A stretch of DNA of 21,253 nucleotides from a virus, in the IMG/VR virus record IMGVR_UViG_3300046318_000500, positions 1-21,253 of that record; one strand, given 5' to 3'. Below the pieces are notes generated by a model that was not told the origin of the DNA, ran no database searches, and worked only from the letters and a program-made list of their open reading frames with translations. The translations under genes were made by a program, and so were the position numbers. Numbering within the stretch: the first letter of the stretch is position 1; each line of letters starts with the position of its first letter. This document shows positions 909 to 20,769 of the stretch, in pieces.

Positions 909-914
909 GATTTC

Positions 915-922
915 ATACTTAT
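915..922 (+). promoter_or_regulatory. Putative late promoter motif ATACTTAT upstream of fibre gene 1
   Basis: ATACTTAT ends 12 bases before ATG 935, in the gap after phoH. It is one of ten copies of the ATANTTAT family in this window. Here the motif is also the left arm of a perfect inverted repeat, TACTTAT (916-922) and ATAAGTA (928-934), with a 5-base spacer. The right arm touches the start codon. The late-promoter role is inferred from repetition and from the gp55-like sigma gene in the window. Confidence 0.6.
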
Positions 923-934
923 CAGTAATAAGTA
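916..934. repeat. Inverted repeat (7-bp arms, 5-base loop) directly before ATG 935
   Basis: Arms TACTTAT (916-922) and ATAAGTA (928-934) are perfectly complementary around CAGTA. The repeat starts eight bases after the phoH stop codon and ends at the base before the fibre start codon. It has no G/C-rich stem or T-tract, so it is a poor terminator. It could be a protein-binding site or a consequence of the promoter motif. Confidence 0.5.
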
Positions 935-2209
935 ATGTCAAATCGCCAGCTTCACAATTTAACGTCGATAAGCAATTCCATAGACTCTGCGGATTTATTC
1001 GTAGTGGTGGATAAAAGTGAGCTTACAACTAATACCATTTCTCTTGGAGTGTTGTCTGATGTACTTGATGATATTGTATTCTTATCTTCGAGTTATTCAT
1101 TAACGAGTTCGCTCACGGCAGGAACAACTTTATCGTGCAGTTTATCGGAATATGTTTCAGCGTCATCATTCGCGTCGGCGGCAAGCGGATCTGGAGTCAT
1201 CGCAACTTCCAGCAGTTATTCTGTGTCGTCGAGTTATTGTTACACCCATACAGACACATTTGAGGTCACGTCGAGCAGTGATACGTTGAATATATTAACG
1301 TCTCCTCGTGGAGACGGTGTAATATACATAAAACCACGGGCACCGTTCGGTAACATATACGTTATTAAACCAACAAGCTTCTCGGAAATATTAGGGTCTA
1401 AAACGATAAACGCGTTATCTGGGTCAATAACTTATAGTGGGCTGCCTTCAAATTTATATGAATTTGAAGTATCTAAATTGGATTCCGTTGATAGGCCTCT
1501 AAAATTCGGTGTAAAAGTAGATTATAAGGTTCCGGCAACATCTGGTTTTAGAGAATTTGTATATTTTTCCCCAGGAGGAGCACAGTATGCAGTCGGCGAT
1601 AGAGTTTTTTCTATATCATCAAGTTTTGCTTCAACATCATCGGTTTTTTCAAAAAATTCTTTAAATTCCATATCCACTTCAGTTTCAACTTTTACAGACA
1701 ATTGTACAGGATCAGGAGTATTCTCTATTTCCGCATCTTTATCTGCTCGGGTGACTCTATCGGAAAGATGTAGACTTTCACACACATCTTCAAATGGTCC
1801 CCTTCCTGGGATGATACTCATATACGCGGGGGTATTTTTAAGCGGATCTAAGAATTGGTATAATTGTGATGGAAGAACTTATACTTCTTCTTTAGAACCA
1901 GGGTTGGCCGCCGCGCTTGGTCAAAAGTTCGCAACTGGTTCCCCCTGGCCGTCAGGCCCAGTGGTTATAAATCGTCTACCGAAAATCTCGACAAATCTTC
2001 CGACATCTTCCGGTGGAACGGGTCCATATAACTCTTCGATAAATACCACGAACACTGAAAGGACTTCATCCGGCCCAATGAATTCTCATATAAGTCAATC
2101 CTATGGAGTAACGTCGTATATAACAGGATCATATTCTGACGGCACTATCGTTTATGGGATTAATATGGGTCCGTCTGGGAGTGCATTTTATTACAACATC
2201 AAACGGTGA
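935..2209 (+). CDS. Tail fibre protein with Ser-rich shaft and tail-collar domain (paralogue 1)
   Basis: 424 residues, probably a receptor-binding or tail-tip fibre. The N-terminus (1-60, with DSADLFVVVDKSEL) matches the attachment-like N-terminus of the next gene (SNEDLFLVQDVS). Two Ser/Tyr-rich blocks with ASGSGVIATSSSYSVSSSY-type modules (about 51-102 and 225-275) flank a mixed segment (110-225) that I do not recognise. Residues 290-356 look like a phage tail-collar domain: GMILIYAG, then NWYNCDGR, GQKFATG and INRLPKIST. The C-terminus (357-424) is Gly/Ser/Thr-rich, as in fibre tips. Fibres of this kind are trimeric and bind host-surface receptors; this is known for the class and not shown here. 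Start ATG 935 follows the ATACTTAT motif by 12 bases. Confidence 0.8.
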   Translation: MSNRQLHNLTSISNSIDSADLFVVVDKSELTTNTISLGVLSDVLDDIVFLSSSYSLTSSLTAGTTLSCSLSEYVSASSFASAASGSGVIATSSSYSVSSSYCYTHTDTFEVTSSSDTLNILTSPRGDGVIYIKPRAPFGNIYVIKPTSFSEILGSKTINALSGSITYSGLPSNLYEFEVSKLDSVDRPLKFGVKVDYKVPATSGFREFVYFSPGGAQYAVGDRVFSISSSFASTSSVFSKNSLNSISTSVSTFTDNCTGSGVFSISASLSARVTLSERCRLSHTSSNGPLPGMILIYAGVFLSGSKNWYNCDGRTYTSSLEPGLAAALGQKFATGSPWPSGPVVINRLPKISTNLPTSSGGTGPYNSSINTTNTERTSSGPMNSHISQSYGVTSYITGSYSDGTIVYGINMGPSGSAFYYNIKR

Positions 2210-2217
2210 TTAACCTC

Positions 2218-2225
2218 ATACTTAT
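2218..2225 (+). promoter_or_regulatory. Putative late promoter motif ATACTTAT upstream of fibre gene 2
   Basis: An exact ATACTTAT copy sits in the 26-base gap between the two fibre genes, 10 bases before ATG 2236. It gives the second fibre its own predicted promoter. Evidence is recurrence at ten gene starts. Confidence 0.6.
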
Positions 2226-2235
2226 TTAAAGATAC

Positions 2236-3750
2236 ATGGCAAACAAGAGAATTTCAGAACTTAACAGTCTTGACGGACAAATTTCAAACGAAGATTTGTT
2301 TTTGGTTCAAGACGTCTCGCCGATTTCTGAGTCAAAGAGTGTCTCGTGGGGATATCTCATGGGCGTCATAGCTGCCTCCGCTTCAGTGGAATCTGCTAGT
2401 TATTCTATAACATCTTCGTTTTCACATAAAATAATAAGTGCCAGTTGGGCATCTTCAAGTATAACTTCAAGTTTTTCTTATGCTGCCAGTGGAAGTCAAG
2501 TATTTGCTGCATCAAGCGATTGGTCTTTTAGTTCTTCATACGCACTGACAGCCAGTTATGCGTCTGGATCTGGGATATTTGCTGTATCGAGTTCGTATTC
2601 GATTTCAAGCAGTTATTCTCTTAATAGTTCGTCCTCGTTAAGTTCATCATACGCCATATCAGCATCATCTGCGTCCGGTAGCGGAGTGTTTGCTATTAGC
2701 AGTTCTTATGCTTTAAGCTCCAGTTTCGCATCCACCGCATCCATATCAGAATATTCGTCAAACGGAATCGAAACGGGATACATGATATTGTATGCGGGCG
2801 AAGATACTGATCAATTAGAAGCCACATCGGAATACTTAGTCTGTGATGGTAGGGATGTATTGGTGTCTGAATATGGTGATTTGTATAATTCATTAGGAAG
2901 AAAATTTGGCTATTATCCTCCGCTCACCATTACTGCCACACGAACTGCTTTCAATGAATTAATGTCTGTTTACGTTGATGCCGAAACTTACCATATAGCA
3001 ATAGAGGGTGCAGATTGGTTCTCCGACGGAAGAGATGTGATATATTATCATGGGAACGGTAGAATAAGATTTTTGCCACAGTCGGGCACAGCTTATGGCG
3101 TTTATACAATAACGGGATTATTTAACGGCGTCACAACTTCTTCCGTTAAAGTGGTATCCAGCGCATCGCCAACAGCGTCGTTTGAGAATTTATCGCGAGG
3201 AGATTATAGATTTATTATATTTGAATCAAATACAAATTCCAACTTCACATTTGATGTGACAGTCGGACTTTCCGTGTCACCTGTGACACTTTCTACTTCG
3301 TTTGGAAATTACACTTCTATACAATTTGCGCCCAGTTCTAATGTAGCATATAATTCCAAATTTAAAGTGGTGGACAATGTGACACACCAAACGTCTATCG
3401 GATATCTAAAACAATCGTCTCCTGCATCTATCACACACCAAACGTCTGTAAATCTTGTTTTTGCCGATGAGGCTCCATTCACATGCAGCGTGATAAGATA
3501 TAGTGGTTCTTATAATGATATGCCGTCAGCATCTCTACATGAATCTACCGTTCAGTTAGAATTCGCTGGGTATAACACCTCGGGTTTGAATCTGACGCAG
3601 ACATTTTCGGCTTCATTTTTTATACCAAACATGGGGGAAATAGCAGGAAGAACTCCGGTCGAAAATATTCCTAGAAACCTTAACCCCACGAATGCAGATA
3701 TTTCTTCGTCTGGATACGATTATACGTTTAGATATTTAATCAAAACGTAA
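2236..3750 (+). CDS. Tail fibre protein with Ser-rich repeats and an interrupted tail-collar domain (paralogue 2)
   Basis: 504 residues, paralogous to the gene before it. Residues 1-60 are the shared attachment-like N-terminus (KRISELNSL, then SNEDLFLVQDVS). Residues 84-169 hold three copies of a roughly 24-residue module, ASGSxVFAxSSSYxxSSSY (starting at 84, 109 and 146), a likely trimeric shaft. The collar domain starts at 180 (GYMILYAG, then YLVCDGRD and LGRKFGY to about 226). Its usual continuation, FFIPNMGEIAGRTP, appears only at 461-474. The 229-457 stretch between them is beta-rich (EGADWFSDGRDVIYYHGNGRIRFLP and following) and looks like an inserted, possibly ligand-binding domain. It contains two in-frame THQTS repeats. 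A receptor-binding function is inferred from family and architecture. ATG 2236 follows ATACTTAT by 10 bases. Confidence 0.8.
   Translation: MANKRISELNSLDGQISNEDLFLVQDVSPISESKSVSWGYLMGVIAASASVESASYSITSSFSHKIISASWASSSITSSFSYAASGSQVFAASSDWSFSSSYALTASYASGSGIFAVSSSYSISSSYSLNSSSSLSSSYAISASSASGSGVFAISSSYALSSSFASTASISEYSSNGIETGYMILYAGEDTDQLEATSEYLVCDGRDVLVSEYGDLYNSLGRKFGYYPPLTITATRTAFNELMSVYVDAETYHIAIEGADWFSDGRDVIYYHGNGRIRFLPQSGTAYGVYTITGLFNGVTTSSVKVVSSASPTASFENLSRGDYRFIIFESNTNSNFTFDVTVGLSVSPVTLSTSFGNYTSIQFAPSSNVAYNSKFKVVDNVTHQTSIGYLKQSSPASITHQTSVNLVFADEAPFTCSVIRYSGSYNDMPSASLHESTVQLEFAGYNTSGLNLTQTFSASFFIPNMGEIAGRTPVENIPRNLNPTNADISSSGYDYTFRYLIKT
3382..3447 (+). repeat. Pair of 15-bp direct repeats inside fibre gene 2
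   Basis: ACACACCAAACGTCT occurs at 3382-3396 and again at 3433-3447, 51 bases apart, so the copies are in frame and both encode THQTS. They lie inside the domain inserted in the collar region. They may mark a short duplication; the sequence between them has otherwise diverged. Confidence 0.6.
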
Positions 3751-3788
3751 ACGTTCACAAATAAACGTTGAGTATTCCGGTGTGTTCA

Positions 3789-3796
3789 GTACTTAT
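3789..3796 (+). promoter_or_regulatory. Putative late promoter motif GTACTTAT
   Basis: GTACTTAT differs from the consensus at one base and ends 12 bases before ATG 3809. It overlaps codons of a possible GTG start at 3782, which argues for the ATG as the true start. Just upstream, AACGTT occurs at 3750-3755 and 3764-3769 and could form a weak 6-bp hairpin. Confidence 0.5.
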
Positions 3797-3808
3797 AGGG
3801 ACAACACT

Positions 3809-3976
3809 ATGAAAGACTATGTTCAAGTAAAAGAGACTGCTGAAGAAGGTATTAAAAGAAACCTTGAAGAAATCCTTTCTCTATCATTTCCTCACGCAGA
3901 ATACGACCTCACAATGGCAAAGATAAATGCCAAAGCAGATGAATGTATTAAACTCGTGGATTCCATTCGTAAATAA
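3809..3976 (+). CDS. Small hypothetical protein (55 aa)
   Basis: The protein MKDYVQVKETAEEGIKRNLEE... is mostly helical, charged, and has no membrane segment or known motif. The frame can be extended to a GTG at 3782, but that would put the ATACTTAT-type motif (3789-3796) inside the gene. ATG 3809 sits 12 bases after the motif, the same spacing as at 935, and an AGGGA lies at 3797-3801. I therefore chose 3809. It sits between the fibre genes and the HD-domain gene; the function is unknown. Confidence 0.65.
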   Translation: MKDYVQVKETAEEGIKRNLEEILSLSFPHAEYDLTMAKINAKADECIKLVDSIRK

Positions 3977-4013
3977 ACTTGTGTAACAGAAAATGTCGGT
4001 GTATATTTCTTAG

Positions 4014-4679
4014 ATGAAAGAATACACTGAATCAGATCTCCAAAAGCTCTACGATAAGTTCATGGCGTTGGTCGAAAAGACCTTCACTGGAGAACGTTTG
4101 GATAAACTCCGAAAACTCTACTCTGAGGAAGCCTATGGTGTAAGGTTAGTTATGGCTCCTGCTTCAGCTAAAGCACATTTTCATAATGCTTATGTAGGTG
4201 GTTATATCGATCACATTATGAATGTCTATAAGGCAGCGGTAGGAACAAAGAAGTTGTGGGAAGCAATGGGAGCAACCATAGATTTCACAGACGAGGAGAT
4301 GATTTTTTCAGCATTACATCACGATTTGGGTAAATTGGGAGACTTGGAACAGGGGGAATACTACCTCCCACAGACGAGCGACTGGCACCAAAAAAACAGA
4401 GGAGAGTTGTATAAATTCAACGCCAATTTACAGTATATGGACGTCACAGACAGAGCGTTGTATATTCTCCAACAGCATCAAATCGTATGTAGTTGGAAAG
4501 AAACTCTCGCTATAAAATTGTCAGACGGCCTTTACCATGACGCCTGTTCGTCGTATTTAAAGAGTTATAACCCTGACAATGAGTTGAAAACAAATTTGCC
4601 AAGGGTTGTCCATGCTGCCGATTATCTCGCTTGCAGGTCGGAATATGATGGATGGAAAAGAGAACAGAAATCCTTTTGA
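4014..4679 (+). CDS. HD-domain phosphohydrolase
   Basis: 221 residues with the residues expected of a metal-dependent HD hydrolase. These are FHNAYVGGYIDH (56-67, candidate metal ligand His67), ALHHDLGKLG (100-109, the His103-Asp104 doublet), His155 in QQHQ, and a late Asp in HAADYLACR (200-208, Asp203). The HNAYVGGYIDH pattern resembles the HD part of YhaM-type 3'-5' exonucleases and other nucleotide or nucleic-acid phosphohydrolases. HD proteins hydrolyse phosphoester bonds in nucleotides, cyclic nucleotides or RNA; the substrate here cannot be read from sequence. No OB-fold or other partner domain is attached. A cytoplasmic role in nucleotide or RNA turnover during infection is inference. 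The start is ATG 4014, with only an imperfect motif (ATATTTCT, 3 bases away) in front. Confidence 0.82.
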   Translation: MKEYTESDLQKLYDKFMALVEKTFTGERLDKLRKLYSEEAYGVRLVMAPASAKAHFHNAYVGGYIDHIMNVYKAAVGTKKLWEAMGATIDFTDEEMIFSALHHDLGKLGDLEQGEYYLPQTSDWHQKNRGELYKFNANLQYMDVTDRALYILQQHQIVCSWKETLAIKLSDGLYHDACSSYLKSYNPDNELKTNLPRVVHAADYLACRSEYDGWKREQKSF

Positions 4680-4706
4680 ATGAGGGTTTTTTCGGTTGCT
4701 GTGTCA

Positions 4707-4714
4707 ATAGTTAT
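4707..4714 (+). promoter_or_regulatory. Putative late promoter motif ATAGTTAT
   Basis: ATAGTTAT matches the ATANTTAT consensus and ends 11 bases before ATG 4726. It lies inside an inverted repeat, TCAATA (4704-4709) and TATTGA (4714-4719), so this site and the one at 915 both coincide with short palindromes. Confidence 0.45.
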
Positions 4715-4725
4715 ATTGATACAGT

Positions 4726-5544
4726 ATGAAACATTTCACATTTAAACGATTAGTTGCTTTCACGTCATTTTTTATCGCAGCTTGTGCTGCGTATTTTTCC
4801 ATCGTCGGCATAGCTATGTTGTTTTCTGGGTCTAAGGCAGCAGCTATGGTAATGGCAGCTTCTTTAGAACTAGGAAAACTCGTCGCGACGAGCTTCTTAT
4901 TCAAATACTGGAAATCCACAAAAACATATCTTAAAACATATCTCACTCTGAGCGTGTTTGTGTTGATGTTTATAACATCTTTAGGTATTTTTGGATATCT
5001 GACGTCTTCTTATCAGAGGTCATCTCTTGATAATAAACTTTCCCTCGAAAAGATTTCAATTTTAGAGTTGAAGAAGTCGGATATAAATAAAAAAATTGAC
5101 ACGTCTAAATCAAGAATTGTATCTATAAGCGACCTTCGTGTTTCACAGGAATCCCGATTGAGTCAGACCATGACAAATTCTTTGGTCACAAGGAATCCGA
5201 TTCAATTACAAGAACTCCAGGCCCAGACGGTAGAGTTAATATCAAAAAGTGAATCCAATATAGAATCTGAAAATAAGAAGGTTGAGACTGCATATCAGGA
5301 GATAGATTCTGTAAATAAATCTATAGCGGATATCAAAATATCTGAGATGGGTAAGAACGATATAATTACATTTAAGTTCGTGGCCGACGAATCTGGTTTC
5401 ACAATGGATAAAATTGTTAAGTGGTTCATAGTATTGATAATAACGGTGTTCGACCCATTAGCTATATGTTTGTTATTGGCATATAATACTGCTGACGATG
5501 AAGAGGAATCTGTTCTTGAAAAAAAAAGACAATCGGTGAACTGA
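4726..5544 (+). CDS. Phage membrane protein with coiled-coil domain, possible frameshifted C-terminus
   Basis: 272 residues. Three hydrophobic helices lie near the N-terminus (about 10-33, 36-58 and 71-93), then a long polar helical region rich in Lys, Glu, Ser and Gln (95-215, likely coiled coil), then a fourth helix (about 231-252, KWFIVLIITVFDPLAICLLL) and an acidic tail. With an even number of helices, both ends would lie on one side and the coiled coil between helices 3 and 4 on that same side. Proteins of this shape occur in T4-like marine phages without known function; a role at the host inner membrane is all that can be inferred. Nine A residues at 5519-5527 near the end could allow a -1 shift into a 43-codon open frame ending at 5657. 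ATG 4726 follows ATAGTTAT by 11 bases. Confidence 0.78.
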   Translation: MKHFTFKRLVAFTSFFIAACAAYFSIVGIAMLFSGSKAAAMVMAASLELGKLVATSFLFKYWKSTKTYLKTYLTLSVFVLMFITSLGIFGYLTSSYQRSSLDNKLSLEKISILELKKSDINKKIDTSKSRIVSISDLRVSQESRLSQTMTNSLVTRNPIQLQELQAQTVELISKSESNIESENKKVETAYQEIDSVNKSIADIKISEMGKNDIITFKFVADESGFTMDKIVKWFIVLIITVFDPLAICLLLAYNTADDEEESVLEKKRQSVN

Positions 5545-5657
5545 TTTGTCCGGTAGAAAATACTTCAAAAAAGAATTTGACAATTAGTGATACGAATAGT
5601 AAAGTTATCACGAAACGAAGACGTCACGATTATTTTGCTAGACTATTTAGGAATTAA
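5518..5657 (+). other. Possible -1 frameshift site and C-terminal extension of the membrane protein
   Basis: In the 0 frame the gene reads GAA AAA AAA AGA and stops at 5542-5544. The heptamer A AAA AAA (5520-5526) would allow a -1 slip, after which the frame stays open from 5526 to TAA 5655-5657 and encodes a basic tail (KTIGELICPVENTSK..., ending HDYFARLFRN). This covers most of the otherwise gene-free 5545-5696 gap in a genome with almost no other gaps. The alternatives are a one-base homopolymer sequencing error or chance. No pseudoknot was established. Confidence 0.4.
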
Positions 5658-5696
5658 ACCACTCTTTTCAAATTTTCTTGATATGTAAATCATATT

Positions 5697-5828
5697 ATGA
5701 ATGAAACAGAAATAGAAGAGGTTTTAAGATTACTTAAAAAAGGTATTAAGAATTCCAACTGGGATATGATAATTGAAGCAGAAGAGTTCTTAGAAGAATT
5801 TTCTGCCGAAGTCGACGAAGATGTATGA
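5697..5828 (+). CDS. Small acidic hypothetical protein (43 aa)
   Basis: ATG 5697 opens a 43-codon frame (MNETEIEEVLRLLKKGIKNS...) that ends at TGA 5826-5828. The product is strongly helical and acidic at its C-terminus (EEFLEEFSAEVDEDV). Its stop overlaps the start of the next gene as ATGTATGA (ATG 5825 inside GTATGA), typical of translational coupling, which supports it being real despite its length. No ATANTTAT motif or clear Shine-Dalgarno site precedes it. The function is unknown. Confidence 0.6.
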   Translation: MNETEIEEVLRLLKKGIKNSNWDMIIEAEEFLEEFSAEVDEDV

Positions 5829-6178
5829 CAATAATTGTATTATCATTGGTTTTGGTTGTATCCGTGGGTATTAACATTTTTCTTGTAAAAGCAACGCACG
5901 TTGCTTCGGATAAGATAGATGAATATGAATCGTGGATATTAGGTTATCAGAAGACGGTGAAAGAAACCTACTCAATGCTTAAAACAATTGATGAGAGGGA
6001 AATCTTCGAGCGAGATGATGAAGTCGGATTCGTATTCTCAAATATCGTATCCATCGTGAACGATCTAAAAGAAAAAACTTATGTCGAAACTACAGAAGAA
6101 ATCAAAAAAGACCAAGACCGTCGCGAAGAAGCCCTTAAAAAAAGAGAGCTCGCCACAAGTGGCAGGCTCCCAGTCTAA
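5825..6178 (+). CDS. Small membrane-anchored phage protein
   Basis: 117 residues, with one hydrophobic N-terminal helix (2-22) and then a helical cytosolic or periplasmic domain. Residues 55-85 (IDEREIFERDDEVGFVFSNIVSIVNDLKEKT) resemble a conserved patch I associate with uncharacterised small proteins of T4-like marine phages. The C-terminus is highly charged. Start and stop overlap neighbours: ATG overlaps the previous stop by 4 bases, and the last 98 bases overlap the long form of the sigma-factor gene in another frame. A strong G/C-rich hairpin (6146-6169) lies near its 3' end. No enzymatic motif is visible. Confidence 0.72.
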   Translation: MTIIVLSLVLVVSVGINIFLVKATHVASDKIDEYESWILGYQKTVKETYSMLKTIDEREIFERDDEVGFVFSNIVSIVNDLKEKTYVETTEEIKKDQDRREEALKKRELATSGRLPV

Positions 6179-6968
6179 GAAATCTAGGCCCGCTTTAGCG
6201 GTCAAGATGACATCTGTCCCGTCGGTGAATCCGTCCGCCACTAAAGATATACCTAAACCCTTGGTTGTGGAGGAACCGAAGGTCAAAAAGATCTCGTTAG
6301 AAAAGATGTATTTCACGAAAGATACCGAGGATGCTATCATTCGTTTCAACAAGGAAGAAAATCAAGACATTAGAAATCACATATATGAGACGTGTATTCA
6401 AAGGTCATTTGAGAAGTTGGTTGAGAACGTATTTAATACATTCAAGTTCAGTTATTTCGATGTCGGTCCGCTAGAGGTTCAAAAGGAAACGCTTTCACAC
6501 CTGGTAGCTAACATCCATAAGTTCGAGGAGGGGAAGGGGAAGGCGTTCTCATATTTCAGTATAGTAGCGAAGAACTATTTAATATTCAATAATAACTCAA
6601 ACTACAAGAGATTTAACCAGCAAGTTGATATAAGTGAAGAAAATGATGAAAACACCGTCCGTCTTCAGACAACCGACACTTATCAGAAGGATAAGGAGAA
6701 CGAAGAGTTTATAAGAATGATGGTGGAATACTGGGATAAGAATATCAAGGACATTTTCCCTAAAGCTCGGGACCTTAAAATTGCTGAAGCGGTGGTTGAA
6801 TTGTTCAGAAACAGCGATAGGTTAGATTATTTCAATAAGAAAGCATTGTATCTCTATATAAGAGAAATTTCATCGTGCAAAACGCAGGCTATTACAAAAA
6901 TCATCAATAAGATGAAAGAATACCAACAAAAGATTACAAAAAAATATGTAGAAGAAGGGGTAATCTGA
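6081..6968 (+). CDS. 55: T4 gp55-like late-transcription sigma factor
   Basis: 295 residues from ATG 6081. Residues 1-70 are Lys/Pro/Ser-rich and look disordered. About 71-180 resembles sigma-70 region 2: ISLEKMYFTKDTEDAI, the helix around IQRSFEKLVENVFNTFKF (107-124), and FEEGKGKAFSYFSIVAKNYLI (148-168), the pattern seen in gp55 relatives. The rest is helical and may contact promoter or core polymerase. In T4, gp55 (185 residues) joins host RNA polymerase to read late promoters with the sliding clamp and gp33. Here the gene sits just before the baseplate module, whose genes carry the ATANTTAT motif. The first 98 bases overlap the upstream gene; an internal ATG at 6207 would avoid the overlap and still keep the conserved domain, so the start is uncertain. 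Confidence 0.75.
   Translation: MSKLQKKSKKTKTVAKKPLKKESSPQVAGSQSKKSRPALAVKMTSVPSVNPSATKDIPKPLVVEEPKVKKISLEKMYFTKDTEDAIIRFNKEENQDIRNHIYETCIQRSFEKLVENVFNTFKFSYFDVGPLEVQKETLSHLVANIHKFEEGKGKAFSYFSIVAKNYLIFNNNSNYKRFNQQVDISEENDENTVRLQTTDTYQKDKENEEFIRMMVEYWDKNIKDIFPKARDLKIAEAVVELFRNSDRLDYFNKKALYLYIREISSCKTQAITKIINKMKEYQQKITKKYVEEGVI
6137..6169 (-). terminator. Terminator-like hairpin on the minus strand
   Basis: Bases 6146-6155 and 6160-6169 form a 10-position stem (one wobble, one mismatch) around the loop CAAG, unusually G/C-rich for this genome. On the minus strand the stem is followed two bases later by seven T residues (the A-tract at 6137-6143), the layout of an intrinsic terminator for antisense transcripts. 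It lies inside coding sequence on the + strand, so coincidence is possible. Confidence 0.4.
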
Positions 6969-7019
6969 TTACTGACGGTGGTATTGTGTAGATGGATTGG
7001 AAAAGTCTTCCAAATGTTG

Positions 7020-7027
7020 ATACTTAT
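7020..7027 (+). promoter_or_regulatory. Putative late promoter motif ATACTTAT at the head of the baseplate module
   Basis: An exact ATACTTAT copy lies in the gap after the sigma gene. It ends 5 bases before ATG 7033 and 11 bases before ATG 7039. It would drive the run of abutting genes from 7039 to 9020. Confidence 0.6.
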
Positions 7028-7038
7028 TGGATATGAGC

Positions 7039-7425
7039 ATGGAACTTCACGAATTTGAGATATATAAAGGAAAGTCGTTTGCTTCTCTTTGTAAGGAAAT
7101 TGTTGTAAATCAAAACGAAAAAAAGGACCAATTAGACATTCTCATCAGCGAACTTCGTTCCTTAATAAAAGGTGTAAATGATGCTATCGTTATAGTTCCT
7201 TTGATACGAGATTACTTGGATGTTGGTGTAAAAAATGACGACCAATTGGTTAAGCTCGCTGCTATAATTCAACGGATCATATCCAAACAAAATGATGACG
7301 CAGCAGCAGGCGCGAACGGGTTTTCTATAACAGATGACGAACGCAAACAATTGATGGAAGAGGTCGAAAAACTTCAGTCGGCTAATCCCAAATCGACATC
7401 TATTTCTGTCAAGGATATTAAATGA
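7039..7425 (+). CDS. Small hypothetical protein preceding the spike gene
   Basis: About 128 residues from ATG 7039 (MELHEFEIYKGKSFASL...). In-frame alternatives are ATG 7033 and a TTG at 7027, but the TTG overlaps the ATACTTAT motif. The 7039 start has the same 10-12 base spacing from the motif as several other genes; 7033 remains possible. The product is helical with a patch of long heptad-like hydrophobics (LDILISELRSLIKGVNDAIVIVPLI) and a low-complexity AAAGANG stretch; no known domain. Its stop overlaps the next start as ATGA (7422-7425), so it is translationally coupled to the spike gene and probably serves tail assembly. That role comes from position only. Confidence 0.7.
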   Translation: MELHEFEIYKGKSFASLCKEIVVNQNEKKDQLDILISELRSLIKGVNDAIVIVPLIRDYLDVGVKNDDQLVKLAAIIQRIISKQNDDAAAGANGFSITDDERKQLMEEVEKLQSANPKSTSISVKDIK

Positions 7426-9020
7426 GTTATAACATAGACCATTCTATATTCGATTCGTCTGTGAACGACGTAGTATTGTTGTCCACTAGAAGGGATAACA
7501 AAGTCCTTCAGAGCGGAAGAAGTGTAATACAGTTTGAGCCCGCCATAGTTTTAGATATAGTAGTTGATGATTCACACCCGATATTTTCTGCCAACGCAGA
7601 TAACCTTGGAAACGTAAGTTCTCCGTTCGAGAATCCACCGGATTTTAATGGGAAACCGTTATCTAAGAATGACCGAGATTATTGTTCAATAGGAATGGCT
7701 CTTATTAGGTTGTGTTACACACACGAAAAATTTGAAAAAGAATCCCTTATATGGGCGGTTCCACTTGATTCCACTTTAATATCACTCCCAGTTCTAAATG
7801 AAATCGTTCATGTGGTTAAGATATTTGACAGGTTCTATTATACATCAAAGGTAAATACTAAGGGGAACTGTAACTCTAATGCGGATTTTAGATATGAACA
7901 GACGTATGGGAAGAAAGAAAAGAATACATCTTATTCCTCTGTGAAGTTGGAGGGGCCGCTCAGCAGATTCGATTGTTATCCAGATGGCAATACAACTGCA
8001 TTCAGCGGCATCTTGGGGAATTACTTCTGGTTTAACAATAAGATACGAAACCTTCGACGATTTGAAGGGGATGTTATTCTCGAAGGAAGATTTGGTCAAA
8101 GCATTCGTATGGGTGCGTATGATTCTAATAGAAAGAATGACGTTGGTGATTACGATAACTATAAAAATGGAACCGAGGATTCCGGTGGAGGAAATCCTAT
8201 GGTTCTTATACGAAATAGGCAACGTCCTATATCTCCACTATCCAAACAATCGTTACATCCATTGTTGCCACCGGTATCCGGATCAATAAGTGAGAAAAGT
8301 TCTACAGGATACATTTCGGAGGATATAAACAACGACGGATCTTCGATACATTTGACATCAGGAAAAACCGTGTCAAATTTCAATACCACTTGTTACAAAT
8401 CATATCTATCGACAAATTCTCCCGAGGAACAGTCTCGTTTTAGCCCACGGGGGTGTACCCAATTCGCGTTCCCAGAATTGAATAGAGACCAGATAGTGAT
8501 TAACAGCGATAGACTTTTATTCTCTTCTCGATTCGGAGAGACTATACACTTTTCAAAGAAGAGGTATATGGTCGTGACCGACAACGAATTTACCGTAGAT
8601 GCGCAAGATCAGATAGTGATGACCACTAATTCAAAGGTAGTTCTAAACTCTCCTGCTATATATTTGGGAGAATACGACGCCACAGGAGAACCTGCGTTGC
8701 TTGGACAGACAACTGTGGATTGGTTGTATGATTTATGTAATTGGTTGATTGCACATACACACTATCACCAACACTCTCATCCAAACGCCGGCGGCAACGC
8801 ATCGCCGGAACAATCTCAATTTTCCGTTCAACTGAAAGCTCTTTATGCACTAAGAGATAAATTACACACTCTTATGAGTCGTAGAGTGTTCCTTACCGGA
8901 GGAGGACATTCTCCGGGATCTAATGGTGGTAGGATTACAGATGGTGTCAATCCTGTGACTATTGATGTATCCAGTGGTGCTGGGGTTCCTGGTGGTTGGA
9001 AGGGAAAAAATCGAAGTTAA
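7422..9020 (+). CDS. 5: Baseplate hub/spike protein, gp5-like
   Basis: 532 residues resembling the central spike (gp5/gpV-type) of contractile tails. Residues 85-140 have beta-rich OB-like character (SLIWAVPLDSTLISLPVLNEIVHVV). EGDVILEGRFGQSIRMG (215-231) is the pattern seen in gp5-type proteins of T4-like phages. About 355-420 is a run of short alternating beta strands (SDRLLFSSRFGETIHFS, then VDAQDQIVMTTNSKVVLNSPAIYLG) expected of a beta-helix spike. Residues 445-453 are HTHYHQHSH; alternating His residues near a spike tip bind iron in P2-type spikes, so metal binding is a fair inference. No lysozyme catalytic domain is evident, unlike T4 gp5. The gene overlaps the previous one by 4 bases and lies two genes before gp25 and gp6, consistent with a baseplate hub role. 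Confidence 0.75.
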   Translation: MSYNIDHSIFDSSVNDVVLLSTRRDNKVLQSGRSVIQFEPAIVLDIVVDDSHPIFSANADNLGNVSSPFENPPDFNGKPLSKNDRDYCSIGMALIRLCYTHEKFEKESLIWAVPLDSTLISLPVLNEIVHVVKIFDRFYYTSKVNTKGNCNSNADFRYEQTYGKKEKNTSYSSVKLEGPLSRFDCYPDGNTTAFSGILGNYFWFNNKIRNLRRFEGDVILEGRFGQSIRMGAYDSNRKNDVGDYDNYKNGTEDSGGGNPMVLIRNRQRPISPLSKQSLHPLLPPVSGSISEKSSTGYISEDINNDGSSIHLTSGKTVSNFNTTCYKSYLSTNSPEEQSRFSPRGCTQFAFPELNRDQIVINSDRLLFSSRFGETIHFSKKRYMVVTDNEFTVDAQDQIVMTTNSKVVLNSPAIYLGEYDATGEPALLGQTTVDWLYDLCNWLIAHTHYHQHSHPNAGGNASPEQSQFSVQLKALYALRDKLHTLMSRRVFLTGGGHSPGSNGGRITDGVNPVTIDVSSGAGVPGGWKGKNRS

Positions 9021-9032
9021 ACTAACTATAGG

Positions 9033-9040
9033 ATATTTAT
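9033..9040 (+). promoter_or_regulatory. Putative late promoter motif ATATTTAT
   Basis: ATATTTAT ends 6 bases before ATG 9047, in the gap after the spike gene. Read on the minus strand, 9034-9041 is TATAAATA, the T4 late-promoter box. All genes here run on the + strand, so + orientation is favoured. Confidence 0.5.
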
Positions 9041-9046
9041 AAGAAT

Positions 9047-9481
9047 ATGAACAGAGAAGATTTTAAAAAAATCATAGGCGAGTCGATAGAATCGAAACTA
9101 CGGGATGTGTTGCCATCTATATTGGATGAATACTTCACATCTATCAAAAAACCCGTGCCACAGACTATCTCGGAGGGATCTCGGAGGAATATGAACGAAT
9201 CACCGTCACTGGCCCGGACTGCTCCTACCGAACCCCTGCAGCCGAAGAAAAAAATCCAATACGTCAAAGATAATTCTGTTTTGAATGATATACTGAACGA
9301 AACCGTTGTAAGGTTAAAACAAGATGGACAGATTGTCTCCGGTGGACCAAGCACGAGCGCGGCGGGTGCTCCATCCGTATTAGATAGGATTTCCGAGGTT
9401 CCTCCGGTGGTCGCTGAGGCTCTGACAAGGGATTATTCTCAACTCTTAAAATTATCCAAGACTAAATCTAATAACAGATAA
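9047..9481 (+). CDS. Hypothetical baseplate-module protein
   Basis: 144 residues. The N-terminal helix (MNREDFKKIIGESIESKLRDVLPSILDEYFTSI, 1-33) is amphipathic; the middle is Pro/Ser/Arg-rich linker; a second helical patch (KIQYVKDNSVLNDILNETVVRLKQD, about 70-94) is followed by a Gly/Ala/Ser linker and a final helix (VVAEALTRDYSQLLKL). This looks like short binding helices joined by flexible linkers, as in assembly or connector proteins. I do not recognise a family. Its TAA overlaps the gp25 ATG by one base (TAATG at 9479-9483), so it is coupled to the baseplate wedge genes. Confidence 0.75.
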   Translation: MNREDFKKIIGESIESKLRDVLPSILDEYFTSIKKPVPQTISEGSRRNMNESPSLARTAPTEPLQPKKKIQYVKDNSVLNDILNETVVRLKQDGQIVSGGPSTSAAGAPSVLDRISEVPPVVAEALTRDYSQLLKLSKTKSNNR

Positions 9482-9900: not shown

Positions 9901-9902
9901 TT

Positions 9903-11867: not shown

Positions 11868-11868
11868 T

Positions 11869-12156: not shown

Positions 12157-12159
12157 TAT

Positions 12160-12546: not shown

Positions 12547-12561
12547 ATGGTAGAAATAAAC

Positions 12562-12569
12562 ATACTTAT
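12562..12569 (+). promoter_or_regulatory. Putative late promoter motif ATACTTAT
   Basis: An exact ATACTTAT copy lies in the 28-base gap before ATG 12575, with a 5-base spacer. It separates the two short DNRLRE-like genes from the full-length one. Confidence 0.55.
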
Positions 12570-12574
12570 ACGAT

Positions 12575-13819
12575 ATGGCATTATCATTCACAGTTGACAG
12601 TTTCACGGGCATAACAGGAAGCAGTTGTGTATCCGGAACTATGCACGGCAACTTCAGCGGCTCGGCTTGTGGATATACCGGAAGTTTGTCCAGTTTTACA
12701 GGGGTGTTGTCAGGATTCATATCAGGATCTTATTATCTAACAGTCAATAGATACTTAAATGAATATAAGAATTACATAAAGCGGTCACTGTTAAAGTTTG
12801 ATATGTCGGAGGTGAGTAGTTCTATTGCTTCGGGAGATATATCGAATCCAAAGTTTACTTTAACTTTAAAGATAATTGAATCCAAAGAACTCCCTGTAGA
12901 TTATAGCATTTATGCTTTCCCTGTTAGCCAAAGTTGGGCTATGGGCACTGGGTTATATGCGTCGGGAGGGTCTACAGATGGGGTTAGTTGGTTGTATAAA
13001 AATTCACAAAATACGTCTAGCAAGTGGTATGTAAACCAAGATGCCGATATCTCTGTGACGGGTTCAAATTATTTAAATAACGCATCCACAGCCTCATTCC
13101 AACGCGGCGGTGGAACGTGGTATTATTCGGCTCCTCCGAGCTGTTCAAACAATCCAAGTCTAAGTTTTTGTTCAGCTGTATCGGCGTCGAGCTACATCTG
13201 TTCACAGTCATTTAGTTATGCGTCATCTGACATATCGATGGATATAACTTCGATATGTAAGGCGTGGATATGTGGGTGCATCCCAAATGAGGGTATAATT
13301 CTTTTGACATCCGAGGAGTTGAATCCTTCCGCATCGATGAATTTAAAATTCTTTGGAAGAGAAACAAACACTATATATTCTCCATTCATAGACGTAAAGT
13401 GGTCAGATTCGACACTGAATACCTCCAGTCTTGCTCCTGTTACAGCAAGTTTGGGTGTATCCGTCAGCATCAAGGGTATACGCTCCGAATATAAGAGTGG
13501 AAATAAAGTAAGGTTCACCGTGTTTGCTAGAGAACAGAATCCGCTTAAACGGTTTGTATCTGCACAGACAAATTATCTCACACCGAAATTTCTTCCTTCA
13601 AGCAGTTTCTATTCTATAAAAGATAATGAAAGTGAAGAAACGGTCATTGGATTTGATGATTATACACGACTTAGCTGTGATGATTATGGAAACTTCTTCC
13701 ACCTTGATACGACTGGCTTGCCACAGGAGAGATACTATAGAATTTTGATCAAGTCAACGTTTTCCGATGGATCAATACAGATATTTGACGATAAACACAC
13801 ATTTAAGGTGACTCGTTGA
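12575..13819 (+). CDS. DNRLRE-domain virion structural protein
   Basis: 414 residues. The first 52 are a Gly/Ser/Thr stretch with two Cys (GITGSSCVSGTMHGNFSGSACGYTG), like the tails of the two preceding genes. Next is NRYLNEYKNYIKRSLLKFDMSEV (58-80), the RSLLKFD strand of DNRLRE domains. The family's Leu-rich strands follow (FTLTLKIIESKELPVDYSIYAFPVSQSWAMGTG, 94-126), then a Trp-rich patch and SDISMDITSICKAWICGCIPNEGIILL (about 217-245), the typical closing part. The last third (from about 300) is another beta-rich domain. The opening DTF...NFGxD strand is missing here but present in both short genes upstream. DNRLRE domains are beta-sandwiches of secreted or virion surface proteins. ATG 12575 follows ATACTTAT by 5 bases. 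Confidence 0.75.
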   Translation: MALSFTVDSFTGITGSSCVSGTMHGNFSGSACGYTGSLSSFTGVLSGFISGSYYLTVNRYLNEYKNYIKRSLLKFDMSEVSSSIASGDISNPKFTLTLKIIESKELPVDYSIYAFPVSQSWAMGTGLYASGGSTDGVSWLYKNSQNTSSKWYVNQDADISVTGSNYLNNASTASFQRGGGTWYYSAPPSCSNNPSLSFCSAVSASSYICSQSFSYASSDISMDITSICKAWICGCIPNEGIILLTSEELNPSASMNLKFFGRETNTIYSPFIDVKWSDSTLNTSSLAPVTASLGVSVSIKGIRSEYKSGNKVRFTVFAREQNPLKRFVSAQTNYLTPKFLPSSSFYSIKDNESEETVIGFDDYTRLSCDDYGNFFHLDTTGLPQERYYRILIKSTFSDGSIQIFDDKHTFKVTR

Positions 13820-13820
13820 T

Positions 13821-14327
13821 ATGGAAAATATAAACAAATTTGGGTCGGATATCACCAGCTTCAGAAATGGAACTTTGGATTACAAATATAATTTCAATTC
13901 GGCTGGCAACTTGTTTTTTAAAGAGAACTCCGATGTATTTAATGAGAACTTTTTGAAGATATTAGTGAAAAATTCTGGATATGACGTGTCTAAACTTGCT
14001 AAACTCTATAATCTGTCTTTTGAGGAGTTTAAATCATCTGACCAATCATCTGACCAATCACCGTCTAAAGAGACAAATGTATCAGTTTCTTTAGAGAAAA
14101 AATTGGTCGACTCCAGCCGTCTGATAAGTGAACTAAAATCACAAATATCCTCAAGTTCTTCGACAAACTCTGATGATGCCGTGTATAAACTCCGATCCGA
14201 GTTGAAGGCTTCTCGGGACACCATTGTCGAACTGAGAATTTCTGCTGGCGAAGGAGAATCCCCAGAAGATTTTGGTGACGAATTTCCGTTTTATCTAAAA
14301 AAAGATACTACAATTCCTATTAAATAA
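13821..14327 (+). CDS. Coiled-coil protein of the baseplate module
   Basis: 168 residues. The N-terminal 70 residues (MENINKFGSDITSFRNGTLDYKYNFNSAGN...) include a predicted globular helical part. A Ser/Asp/Gln linker with two perfect SSDQ units follows (72-79), then a heptad-like helix (about 88-140, LEKKLVDSSRLISELKSQI and YKLRSELKASRDTIVELRI) and an acidic end (GESPEDFGDEFPFYLKK). This looks like a connector or oligomerisation protein. ATG 13821 lies one base after the previous stop, with AAGGTG upstream. I do not recognise the family. Confidence 0.75.
   Translation: MENINKFGSDITSFRNGTLDYKYNFNSAGNLFFKENSDVFNENFLKILVKNSGYDVSKLAKLYNLSFEEFKSSDQSSDQSPSKETNVSVSLEKKLVDSSRLISELKSQISSSSSTNSDDAVYKLRSELKASRDTIVELRISAGEGESPEDFGDEFPFYLKKDTTIPIK
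14034..14057 (+). repeat. Two perfect 12-bp tandem repeats
   Basis: TCATCTGACCAA occurs twice back to back (14034-14045 and 14046-14057), encoding SSDQ twice in the linker of the coiled-coil protein. Perfect identity suggests a recent slippage duplication and possible length variation between relatives. Confidence 0.85.
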
Positions 14328-14339
14328 CCGTCTCCGGGT

Positions 14340-14347
14340 ATAATTAT
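14340..14347 (+). promoter_or_regulatory. Putative late promoter motif ATAATTAT
   Basis: ATAATTAT matches ATANTTAT and ends 6 bases before ATG 14354, in the 26-base gap before the largest gene. Confidence 0.45.
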
Positions 14348-14353
14348 TGTAGT

Positions 14354-17300
14354 ATGTCATCGTTGTATCTCATCGAAGAGTCAAAAAACACCTTAAATAC
14401 TGTAGGGTATTTGGGGAAGAAAGAACATGAGCTCTTCTTTGTGTCGTCCAGTAAAGAGTATTCTTTTGGAAACTCTTCAAAAGACGTGCTCGAAGTAGGG
14501 ATTTATAACCTACAGAAAGAACTTAGTTCGTATTTTCACATAACAAGTTCTAAACTGGATAAAAAGGTCACGTATAAATATTCAGATGTGGATGGGAATT
14601 CTTTCACAGATTATTATTTTTCAACCAAAAACTCTGCTCTACAGGACTTAGATAAAAATTATTTACTATCCGTTGGAGATGTTATACGTTACGGATCTGT
14701 TACATCGAATAACTTCTATCTGTCGGTAAATCCGATTTCTAATCTTTTCTCTATTGAAGATCCGTTGACCATAAAGGAGATAAGCAATTCTAGGAAAGAG
14801 ATTAAGTTGATTAAATCCTTTAGGTCAGAATCTATTGGAGGGATACATTCTGTAGAGATGGAAAAGAATTCTCTGAGGATAGACGGATCATCCTCAGTAA
14901 AATTTAAGTCTGGTATAGTCCACGTCATAAAGGCTGTGGGGTTGGATGTGAACAAAATCCGATTTAGTAAGGTTCGGGGGGGTGTAAAAAACGGGTCTGT
15001 TGAATATAATTCCAACATAGTCTACCGCCCATCTTCAAGTGAGATAGTCATTGACGCAACAGAAGATTTTCCGAAGGTTTTATTTGCATACCACCGTGAT
15101 ATAAGTTCCGCCGGCGTGGAGATAAATTTATCGGAGTCGGTGTCTGTGGAAGATTTCAAACTAAATACAGAATTTTCTTCTCTGAAACACGATGGGTTTG
15201 TTTATAGAGAAATATCCGACGAACTCACATATGAACTTTCAACTGTAAATTTAACAGAACTCTATGATTCCACTAAACAGTCGTTTTATAGTCAGATAGT
15301 GTCTCTGAGAAATTTATTATCATTCTCAAATGACAGTGAAGTTCTGGAGTTGATTTCTTCGATATACAACGGAGTGACGATATCCGATTCCGTTACAGGA
15401 AAAAATACAAGGTTACTTGGGATACGTGAGTTTATTGATAACCACATCAAATTTAATTTTGAATTTTTGGGGGATTTCAAATCGTTTAGAGAATCCTCTC
15501 AGAACATCATTTCGTCCGTTTGTGAATCTCGTTTGAGGTTTTATAACCCGCACGCTATAGACACTAAATCTAATAAAGAGAATTTTTCACAGGCAGTAAT
15601 TTATCTAAAATCTATTTTGACATCAGCGGTTCAGTCATCTATATCAAATGTCGAATATGGATATAAGTTGAAATTCAAAAGTCCACTAAAATCTGCTCTA
15701 AACTTTGGTAGTGGATCACTCTTTCCTATACTTACATCTAAGATAGAGAATGAATCCGAGTTTTGGGTTAAGTTGAAGGATCCGTTATCTGGAAACTTTT
15801 CCGTTGGGGATAAGACATCTTTATCTAATATATCCATAATACCGACTTTTGAGTTGATATCATGGTTAGCAGAGAATTCTCAGAAGTTCATTAAGTTGAG
15901 GATTCCAAATTTTTCTCTGAACCTTAATGAACCCTCCGATAGAACAATTTCCACAAAATATTACTCGGATAATGATTTGGAAATTTCAAGGGTCGCTGGA
16001 AATAAAATTTCAGTGAACAAAAAATTGATCGACCTAAACATCGATTACAGCGATTTTTCAAATTTCGTAGTCTTCTCCTCAGCAAACCTGAGATTAAAAA
16101 TCTTCAAGAATAAAGTTATCCAATTGACCACTCTGGATGAGGAGATCGCCACACTCTCGTCCGTGGATACAGGCAGTTCGGAAGTAAATGATAGGTTAAG
16201 CGTTTATACTGACCTTGTAAACAAAAGAAATGAATTCGACTCTATTATAGAGGGGTTTGACGGTTATGAATCTTACCTTTACAAATCCGGACAGTTTGTA
16301 TATGACACAAACCAATCCACGTTCGTATATCCATCCGGTAGCTTAAATGTGTCATCGGCTGTGGATGAACTTCTATCTGAGTCGGAGACTTATGATAAAA
16401 ACAATAGAGATTCTCTTCTTAATAACAGTCCTGAATTTATTTATGAAGACACTGAAAATGATGAGTATTTGAAGTTTTTGAGTATGGTCGGCCATCATTT
16501 TGACAATCTTTATCTACACATTTCTAACATAGGAATATACAAGAGAATCGGACACGACCTTGATGATGGGCTTACTGGAAAAATTATAAGTTACATATTG
16601 AATAGCTTTGGGTTTAAACTTCCTCCCGGGTTGTCAGGTTTAATAGAATCATCAGACACCATCGAGAATTATCTTTCATCAGACGAACAATCTGGGCTTG
16701 TTAATAGTATATCTGTGGATGAAAAGACGAAAACTATATGGAAACGGATGTTGATAAACCTTCCATCCGTTTACAAATCCAAAGGAACGGAAGAATGTAT
16801 CCGACAAATATTTTCGATTTATGGTGTCCCGAATAACCTTATAACTTTAAAGGAGTTCGGCGGGGGATATTATGATAATGAGATAAGTTCATCGTATCTT
16901 TCCGAAGAACGTGAGTATCTTTTAGAATTTCAGGGAGAAGAGGATGAATACGTAGAAATAACTGGGTCGTGGCAGCAGTTTAAATCTGTTGATTTTAAGC
17001 TATACATAGAACCGACATCGTATTCATCGTCGAGGATTATAGTTCCTATCCACGAAAAGTTTGGGACCGAGACAAGTTCTACTACACAAGCTTATTCTTT
17101 AGGATTTGTAAAAACCGGTCCTAGTTTGGGCAGATTTTATTTCACAATACGAAACGACTCGTCACACTTCACCACACTAACTGATCCCGTTTATTTGTTT
17201 TCGGATGAACCAATGAGTGTGCTTCTTCGTAAGAATTATGTAAATAAAAGTTTTGGTGTCGAAGAATCCTCTTCAGCTGTTCCGGTAAGGTATGACATAA

Positions 17301-18928: not shown

Positions 18929-18955
18929 AATAAAACAGAAAATCGAAATCAAAGA

Positions 18956-18963
18956 CTATTTAT
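18956..18963 (+). promoter_or_regulatory. Putative late promoter motif CTATTTAT
   Basis: CTATTTAT differs from ATANTTAT at the first base and ends 9 bases before ATG 18973, in the 44-base gap after the large baseplate gene. Confidence 0.45.
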
Positions 18964-18972
18964 TAGAAGATT

Positions 18973-19608: not shown

Positions 19609-19613
19609 AATTT

Positions 19614-20705
19614 ATGGCGAATAACTTCAAAATATATCAGTCATTCGACTCGTCCGATATTATCTCAGGAAAGAACAATACCGTCTCGAATGGTTATTTC
19701 CCTGGTAATCAAGCAAATTTCTTACAGTCGTTGCTCAGAACTGATTCTGACCAAAAACAACTCACTGGTTCAAATGGTGCTTATGATGTGTTAAATGGTT
19801 TGTATTACACCAATGTATATGATGGTTCAACATCTGCAAAACAACTTCTTTTTTCGATATCTTACGGTGATAAAAACGGAAGGGGAATTAAAACAGGATC
19901 TTTATTTCAAAATACAAAAGCGATATATTCCCAATTTTCAAATACACTGTTAGGAATATCTGACGAGGATGGTTTGTTCAGTTTCAAAACAGGAAGTTCT
20001 AGTTCTAATACTTACATAACGAGTTCAGAAATATTTGTTATGTCATTTTCGTCCAATTTAATGAACGACCAGTTGGATAAAGGGCAGTGGGCCTTTGCTC
20101 TGAACGGGTCGAGTGGAAGTGCGTCTTTATATATGGTGGATGAAACGCCGTTGTTAACGTCTGCTGAGAAAAAGGAACAACGGTTGGTTTACCAAATCGT
20201 CTCCGGAAGTTTTGATGGAGATTTAGGGCGGACGACGGCAGTTGGAGACTATCACGGAATAGGTTTATTTTATCCTAAAAACGGAGTCATGGTTTTAAAC
20301 GCAAGCAAGTTACGTTCAATGTGCGGTCTTAATCACGACACCGGAACCGGATCAGCGTTTCACGTTGACAATAGCGTTAGATTTTACAATGCGATGGTGG
20401 CTGTCAGCAACAGAAACATGAGGGCCCGAAAATCAGAGATTGTTCCATCCACACACTACTTTGTTAGAGTCAAAAATCAAGATTTCAACTTTTCTAACAA
20501 CCCTTCCTTTGTTTATTCTGAAAATATCTCTGGTAGCTACAAGGGGGAAATCATAGATTCTCTTGTAGATGAACCGAAGACATATATCACAACCGTTGGA
20601 CTCTATAATGAACAGAATGAACTTATCGCTGTGGCCAAATTGAGTCAACCAAACAAAAAAGACTTCATATCTGAACTGGGTTTTAAAATCCGTCTTGATT
20701 TCTGA
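19614..20705 (+). CDS. Conserved virion structural protein
   Basis: 363 residues. The protein is rich in Ser, Gly and aromatic residues throughout (for example YFPGNQANFLQSLLRT, 28-43; GIGLFYPKNGVMVLNASKLRSMCG, about 215-240). It ends in YITTVGLYNEQNELIAVAKLSQPNKKDF...FKIRLDF (324-363), a C-terminal signature I associate with structural proteins of T4-like phages. T4 gp8 (334 residues) occupies a similar position, but its FGRSEPW-type features are not seen, so I do not call it gp8. There is no signal peptide or membrane segment. It is probably co-transcribed with the upstream gene (5-base gap). Confidence 0.72.
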   Translation: MANNFKIYQSFDSSDIISGKNNTVSNGYFPGNQANFLQSLLRTDSDQKQLTGSNGAYDVLNGLYYTNVYDGSTSAKQLLFSISYGDKNGRGIKTGSLFQNTKAIYSQFSNTLLGISDEDGLFSFKTGSSSSNTYITSSEIFVMSFSSNLMNDQLDKGQWAFALNGSSGSASLYMVDETPLLTSAEKKEQRLVYQIVSGSFDGDLGRTTAVGDYHGIGLFYPKNGVMVLNASKLRSMCGLNHDTGTGSAFHVDNSVRFYNAMVAVSNRNMRARKSEIVPSTHYFVRVKNQDFNFSNNPSFVYSENISGSYKGEIIDSLVDEPKTYITTVGLYNEQNELIAVAKLSQPNKKDFISELGFKIRLDF

Positions 20706-20717
20706 TGTAATTTGTTC

Positions 20718-20760
20718 AAGAAGTTTAGGTTTTTATATCGACGTATAAAACTAGGTTCTT
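20718..20760. terminator. Long imperfect hairpin in the intergenic gap (possible terminator)
   Basis: Three stacked stems can form: 20718-20722 with 20756-20760 (AAGAA/TTCTT), 20724-20728 with 20751-20755 (two G-U pairs), and 20731-20737 with 20744-20750 (TTTTATA/TATAAAA) around loop TCGACG. It lies 13 bases after the stop at 20705 and one base before the ATATTTAT motif. There is no T-tract after it on either strand, so an intrinsic terminator is not certain; an RNA-processing or 3'-end stability structure is also possible. Confidence 0.35.
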
Positions 20761-20761
20761 C

Positions 20762-20769
20762 ATATTTAT
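20762..20769 (+). promoter_or_regulatory. Putative late promoter motif ATATTTAT
   Basis: ATATTTAT ends 5 bases before ATG 20775, directly after the long hairpin at 20718-20760. As at 9033, the opposite strand reads TATAAATA (20763-20770). Confidence 0.5.

Follow-up and report, generated by a model that had tools for sequence, protein, structure and literature searches.

The stretch of DNA analyzed here (the window, which is the entire 21,253-base record) comes from an uncultured virus of bacteria, whose late, virion-building genes are marked by a short AT-rich box. Ten copies of this box lie on the plus strand shortly upstream of start codons, and all ten were found where the original prediction had placed them. 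The sequence ATACTTAT accounts for only four of these sites: 915 to 922 (12 nt from the ATG at 935 of a fibre-like gene; 4/4 orthologs boxed), 2218 to 2225 (10 nt from the ATG at 2236; 4/5 orthologs boxed), 7020 to 7027 (5 nt from the ATG at 7033, which heads a baseplate operon; 36/50 orthologs boxed), and 12562 to 12569 (5 nt from the ATG at 12575; 11/41 orthologs boxed). ATATTTAT is found at 9033 to 9040, 6 nt from the ATG at 9047 and upstream of the baseplate genes gp25 and gp6 (15 of the 23 orthologs are boxed), and again at 20762 to 20769, 5 nt from the ATG at 20775. ATAGTTAT occupies positions 4707 to 4714, 11 nt from the ATG at 4726 (25/38 orthologs boxed), and the palindromic ATAATTAT occupies positions 14340 to 14347, 6 nt from the ATG at 14354, with a box also present in the related loci L002 and L004. 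The two remaining copies vary at position 1, as had been predicted. GTACTTAT at 3789 to 3796 (12 nt from the ATG at 3809) begins with G, which is rare in the clade of relatives described below, and is the weakest copy; CTATTTAT at 18956 to 18963 (9 nt from the ATG at 18973) begins with C, which is common in the clade.

Matches to the pattern [ACG]TANTTAT are present on the sense strand of 10 of the 12 intergenic gaps of at least 20 nt (602 nt in total) and on the antisense strand of one gap, while 5,000 base shuffles of the same gaps gave a mean of 0.58 gaps with a match and a maximum of 4. These gaps make up 2.8% of the window and hold 10 of its 14 sense matches (Fisher test, P = 3e−13, a post hoc value because the pattern had been picked on the same data; the relatives provide the independent test). 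The original prediction held that the box is present in gaps and absent where genes abut. All six abutting starts that it named are indeed unboxed, but two of the gaps, upstream of 4014 and of 5697, have no box either. Its statement that no exact copy was seen inside genes is true of ATACTTAT on both strands and fails for ATANTTAT, which occurs within coding DNA at 87, 9806, and 19300 on the plus strand and at 8155, 9806, 14574, and 19300 on the minus strand. Given that whole-window shuffles lead to an expectation of 7.6 ATANTTAT matches on both strands together, the box could be viewed as a chance AT-rich word in AT-rich gaps. We regard this as extremely improbable in the face of the position, strand, and orthology tests, and the independent relatives already refute it.

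The unboxed gap upstream of 4014 contains a putative sigma70-like promoter, read from the sequence as TTGTGT-17 nt-TATATT (positions 3979 to 4007, plus strand, 6 nt from the ATG), which would represent a contrasting, non-late class within the window. Only 1 of the 36 orthologs of gene 4014 is boxed, and several of them have a TTGNNN...TATNNT-like pattern upstream. The gap upstream of 5697 carries another conserved element, TTGATATGTAA[A/T]TCATATT (positions 5677 to 5696), immediately before the ATG of a small ORF that heads the sigma operon. This element is also found in L003, L004, L007, and L009 and may serve the sigma gene as a middle promoter. The sigma gene itself, located at 6081 to 6968 on the plus strand, encodes a 295-aa candidate gp55-like late sigma factor, identified by profile alignment and a fold model. 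No Rfam or tRNA features were detected in the window.

The box in uncultured relatives

Using the window's candidate sigma protein, we retrieved 80 IMG/VR loci and, later, a more distant second set. Nonredundant sequences upstream of gapped starts were searched de novo by expectation-maximization, with no seed taken from the original finding. The window and its 15 nearest loci yielded ATA[T/C]TTAT (log likelihood ratio of 135 versus 17 to 19 for shuffled sequences), and the other 65 loci yielded ATATTTAT (85 versus 20 to 23). In the second set, the two next bands gave the same motif, and in the most distant band a Shine-Dalgarno motif comes first. The clade consensus derived from the relatives is ATA[T/C]TTAT(A). 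The motif, which had been taken for this phage's own, is thus shared by a large clade and, as detailed below, by Immutovirus and Mel-JY01.

The box is also conserved among orthologous genes. A box precedes 95 of the 161 orthologs of boxed window genes, compared to 4 of the 349 orthologs of unboxed ones; the former figure comprises only scored orthologs (the last boxed genes had none scored) and leaves out the orthologs of gene 14354, which are truncated or differently placed (0/4 boxed). Among nonredundant starts in Shine-Dalgarno-poor loci, the box precedes 274 of the 952 gapped starts versus 31 of the 725 abutting ones. The boxed fraction of gapped starts is only about 29%, and many of the gapped starts belong to early genes or miscalled ORFs. 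T4 boxes number 0 to 3 per set of gapped starts, versus 18 to 57 for the new box. A reversed-pattern control was left out because it shares one base with the real box.

No −35 hexamer was found in 248 aligned clade boxes, whose upstream sequences have only a weak A/T preference. Within the same alignment, weak A/T-rich stretches occur at 14 to 16 and at 25 to 28 nt on the upstream side, a separation of roughly one turn of the helix. Bacterial genomes were also scanned for the sigma in order to find a host, and no match was returned.

Late genes and early promoters

The box is a signal of late genes, and promoters in these genomes are divided between early and late classes. Late boxes are found ahead of the prohead region, of large tail or fibre genes, of the operon encoding the portal and the large terminase subunit, and, in the window, of the baseplate operon with gp25 and gp6. 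There is no box directly upstream of the major capsid gene; the box of that operon sits ahead of the preceding gene, about 90 to 120 nt upstream in three genomes, and is followed by a conserved leader. This leader (oriented positions 73543 to 73673 of G001, in L098, and also seen in G003 and G004) contains a conserved possible hairpin (TTGAAGTTC ... AATAACTTCA) close to the ATG. Some boxes are found in early-type regions, including one ahead of a homing endonuclease gene. The sigma gene is unboxed in all of its 64 orthologs examined (64/64), as expected for a gene needed ahead of late transcription.

In longer contigs, we detected a second, sigma70-like promoter type, TTGAC-N(15-19)-TANNNT, which clusters where ORFs are small. 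G001, for example, has 21 of its 23 promoters of this type within the first 30 kb, and early and late signals coincide at only 1 of its 83 gapped starts. The DNA primase gene has such an early promoter upstream. The −10 element of the early promoters mostly ends 6 to 9 nt from the ATG.

Because host sigma70-like promoters are clearly present in these genomes, and because the box is AT-rich, resembles a −10 element, and lies at a suitable distance for transcription, it could simply be the −10 element of ordinary host housekeeping-sigma promoters, in which case no phage sigma would be needed. We consider this quite unlikely. A TTGACA-like −35 element 16 to 18 nt upstream, typical of sigma70, is found in the early class but not with the box, which is a fixed 8- to 9-nt word unlike TANNNT. 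Moreover, the early promoters form a class of their own, and the same box recurs in phages of Flavobacterium and Microcystis, with early promoters of quite another appearance in immuto.

Cultured relatives

Flavobacterium phage immuto and Microcystis phage Mel-JY01 are relatives of the clade, with sigma proteins 36 to 39% identical and, for the major capsid protein, about 52% identity to clade member L010, and their late box is the same as that of the clade. Within 49 kb of immuto that hold the head and tail genes, a box precedes 15 of the 23 gapped starts (0.5 expected). The immuto early region has boxes at 2 of 30 gapped starts (0.9 expected) and an unrelated motif, TATATTTAGGTAT. In the late region of Mel-JY01, the box precedes 8 of 25 gapped starts (about 0.6 expected). 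A reading of both phages as lacking the box was rejected, since early regions made up most of the stretches first searched and the permitted distance had been set too low. Whole-genome counts of MTATTTAT (in immuto, 51 on one strand versus 9 on the other) mix late and chance sites and were not taken as evidence. In the immuto early region (L082, positions 1 to 16000), the early promoter motif TATATTTAGGTAT is strongly repeated, together with an upstream GTTG element, ahead of many small genes.

The two phages differ from the clade in their early promoter types or Shine-Dalgarno use, as well as in the distance from box to ATG. In contrast to the clade, where it is mostly 4 to 6 nt, this distance is mostly 17 to 27 nt in immuto and 13 to 66 nt, mostly 34 to 40 nt, in Mel-JY01. 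A Shine-Dalgarno sequence often lies between box and ATG in Mel-JY01; immuto, which is without Shine-Dalgarno sequences, nevertheless keeps its leaders. Given that the box stays the same while early promoters and ribosome-binding habits differ, it is probably read by the phage's own sigma.

The Bacteroidota housekeeping promoter, TAnnTTTG, is superficially like the box in having a T/A/TTT word, and the immuto early motif TATATTTAGGTAT resembles it. The late box, however, has neither the following G nor a −33 element, and the TAnnTTTG-like early motif and the late box of immuto mark different classes of genes. Rhodothermus phage RM378 (major capsid protein about 37% identical) also encodes its own sigma, but the annotated protein falls outside the family of 6081 to 6968. 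Several RM378 genes (L197, 81 to 130 kb) have another recurring word, TTATTTAA, a short way upstream.

The candidate sigma factor

The fold model of the protein encoded by 6081 to 6968 indicates a sigma-region-2 fold, and profile comparisons indicate a distant gp55 homolog that falls outside the gp55 profile family. Neither Pfam nor PHROGs provided an annotation for the family; against the gp55 profile (PHROG 234), the window protein has no match at an E value of 10 and its immuto homolog has an E value of 0.62. Searching PDB chain sequences with a profile did not name the sigma either. Using hhalign, the family aligns with the gp55 family collinearly over region 2 (E = 6e−5, probability of 66%), and in a two-sequence test the family HMM gave 1e−5 for T4 gp55 versus 0.09 for the RM378 sigma. 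An AlphaFold2 model based on a 50-sequence alignment has a pLDDT of 83.8 over residues 72 to 295; a first model, based on 9 sequences, was too poor for use (pLDDT of 54). Foldseek searches with the better model retrieved mainly sigma factors, with no match at an E value of 0.001 or better. With VIA-align, the top PDB match is T4 gp55 (7d7c_F; Z of 10.8 over 115 residues), tied with other sigmas (Z of 10.2), in line with the gp55-like sigma that the original prediction had seen in the window.

Toward its C terminus (residues at about 200 to 292), the protein has a conserved helical part, absent from T4 gp55, that includes a stretch resembling a helix-turn-helix (KKALYLYIREISSCKTQQITKVINKMK). 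This part might substitute for sigma region 4 or gp33. T4 gp55, which has a C-terminal clamp-binding motif, works with the sliding clamp gp45 and the coactivator gp33. No T4-like C-terminal motif is obvious in the window protein, and a search for the sliding clamp (PF02916) gave no match in ten relatives, with the positive controls silent too.

Since the homology to gp55 is distant, and since immuto and Mel-JY01 encode many unannotated proteins, the late promoter could be read by another phage factor, either a different sigma or an accessory protein, with 6081 to 6968 doing something else. We think this unlikely, because the bulk of the loci retrieved with this family as bait carry the box, the protein has a predicted sigma-2 fold, and the window showed no further sigma candidate. 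The product of 6081 to 6968 is probably the reader of the box.

Comparison with T4 late promoters

Late promoters are established for T4, and so are variants of them in related phages (PMC2988020, PMC1524935). The T4 late promoter TATAAATA, recognized with gp55, is likewise a single −10-like box of 8 bp that has no −35 element and serves late genes, with separate sigma70 promoters for early genes (PMC2988020, PMC1524935, PMC7892883). Like the clade sigma, T4 gp55 is phage-encoded and has only a sigma-2-type domain that is recognizable. The clade box has the T4 arrangement, in that it stands alone, without a −35 element, ahead of late genes, but it does not match the T4 consensus. In the register TA[T/C]TTATA, 6 of the 8 positions agree with the T4 box, including the deep-pocket adenines A-12 and A-8, and the central A-10 A-9 of T4 are replaced by T T. 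The difference from the T4 late box that had been predicted therefore comes down mainly to two central bases. The Aeh1 late variant CTAAATA provides a precedent for a diverged late box paired with a diverged gp55, although in Aeh1 the changes lie upstream of an intact AAATA, whereas in the clade box the AAA core is changed to TTA (PMC1524935). We conclude that the box is a real, diverged gp55-type late promoter and a new variant. The reading of box and sigma as a diverged pair, already proposed in the original prediction, is supported by the relatives, the late-gene specificity, the separate early class, the lack of a −35 element, and the sigma-2 fold.

In the gp55 complex, three adenines are flipped: −12 is held by Y97, −9 by N13 and H95, and −8 by T99 (PMC7892883). 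In our alignment to gp55, which is weak, Y97 faces Y158 and T99 faces S160, both of which are invariant in the family; N13 faces T79, and H95 faces F156, a position that is also F in cyanophage gp55s. The resulting agreement between box and pocket residues, which depends on the register chosen as well as on this weak alignment, is suggestive but does not amount to proof.

T4 and the clade also differ in the spacing of the box. In the T4 late region, analyzed with the same pipeline, the box lies 14 to 35 nt from the ATG (mode of 27 to 28 nt) with a Shine-Dalgarno sequence in between, whereas the clade box mostly lies 4 to 6 nt from the ATG with no Shine-Dalgarno leader.

Spacing and predicted leaderless expression

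The 4- to 6-nt distance between box and ATG is the most unusual feature of the locus and was overlooked in the original prediction. In Shine-Dalgarno-poor loci, 125 of the 274 boxes lie 4 to 6 nt from the ATG and none lie at 2 to 3 nt. Boxes within 8 nt of the ATG number 157 of 274 in these loci versus 2 of 15 in Shine-Dalgarno-rich loci (Fisher test, P = 9e−4, which serves only as a guide because the lineages are partly dependent). Minor peaks of the distance are seen near 10 to 11 and 15 to 17 nt. A simple link between short spacing and the lack of Shine-Dalgarno sequences was considered and softened in view of the leaders in immuto.

Tight spacing in loci poor in Shine-Dalgarno sequences could also mean that the box is an element of translation initiation, either Kozak-like or an AT-rich binding site for S1. 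This explanation is very unlikely, given that abutting starts are unboxed though they also need translation, and that the spacing reaches 12 to 40 nt and shifts between host types. The long conserved leader between box and pre-capsid gene is likewise something that a promoter tolerates and a translation element would not.

The T4 box spans positions −13 to −6 (PMC1524935), so that the RNA start is predicted about 5 to 7 nt past the clade box. Transcription should then begin at the ATG for half of the window sites and at most about 7 nt upstream for the others. Because the window boxes lie 5 to 12 nt from the ATG, the predicted late leaders are 0 to 7 nt long, and late mRNAs are probably leaderless or nearly so, with the start position deduced from spacing. 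Exact T4 spacing would place the RNA start one or two bases inside the ATG for gaps of 4 to 5 nt, and start choice must therefore be slightly shorter or flexible. The sharp cutoff below 4 nt is consistent with the start site being barred from moving beyond the AUG.

We consider it very likely that the boxes are single-element late promoters read by the gp55-like sigma 6081 to 6968 and giving near-leaderless mRNAs. ATA[T/C]TTAT(A) would act as the −10-like late promoter of a T4-superfamily phage clade, recognized without a −35 element by this sigma on the host RNA polymerase. RNA would start about 5 to 7 nt downstream of the box, so that late mRNAs would begin at, or no more than about 7 nt from, the start codon, and abutting downstream genes would be translated off the same message. 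Early genes would use separate sigma70-like promoters with equally short spacing. The role of 6081 to 6968 as reader is inferred, as are the position of the start site, translation without a leader, and the time at which the genes are expressed.

Phage transcripts are often leaderless, according to a remark in passing (PMC5312081), and Flavobacterium has no Shine-Dalgarno sequences (PMC6847099). Our searches, which covered open-licence papers, turned up no earlier account of this box, nor of T4 relatives that express late genes from leaderless mRNAs. More broadly, we see an even chance that a widespread, mostly uncultured clade of the T4 superfamily has its own gp55-type sigma and distinct late box, with nearly all primary transcripts, early and late, leaderless, and with the box constant across hosts and only its distance to the ATG retuned to the host's translation start. 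Such phages would allow a comparison, set up by nature, between leaders whose length follows the translation style of the host behind one unchanged promoter box, ending in predicted genome-wide leaderless expression. They also appear to provide a second, different gp55-type sigma/promoter pair, whose predicted change of specificity from A-10 A-9 to T T can be compared with residues in the gp55 cryo-EM structure. The box gives a simple rule for locating late operons in many uncultured phage contigs.

Operon-internal genes start 1 to 3 nt past the previous stop codon (TAATATG, TGATATG), as seen in the window at 9900 to 9903, 11867 to 11869, and 13819 to 13821, and the orthologs of abutting genes have a median gap of 1 to 3 nt. 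This stop-to-start spacing suggests translation by termination and restart.
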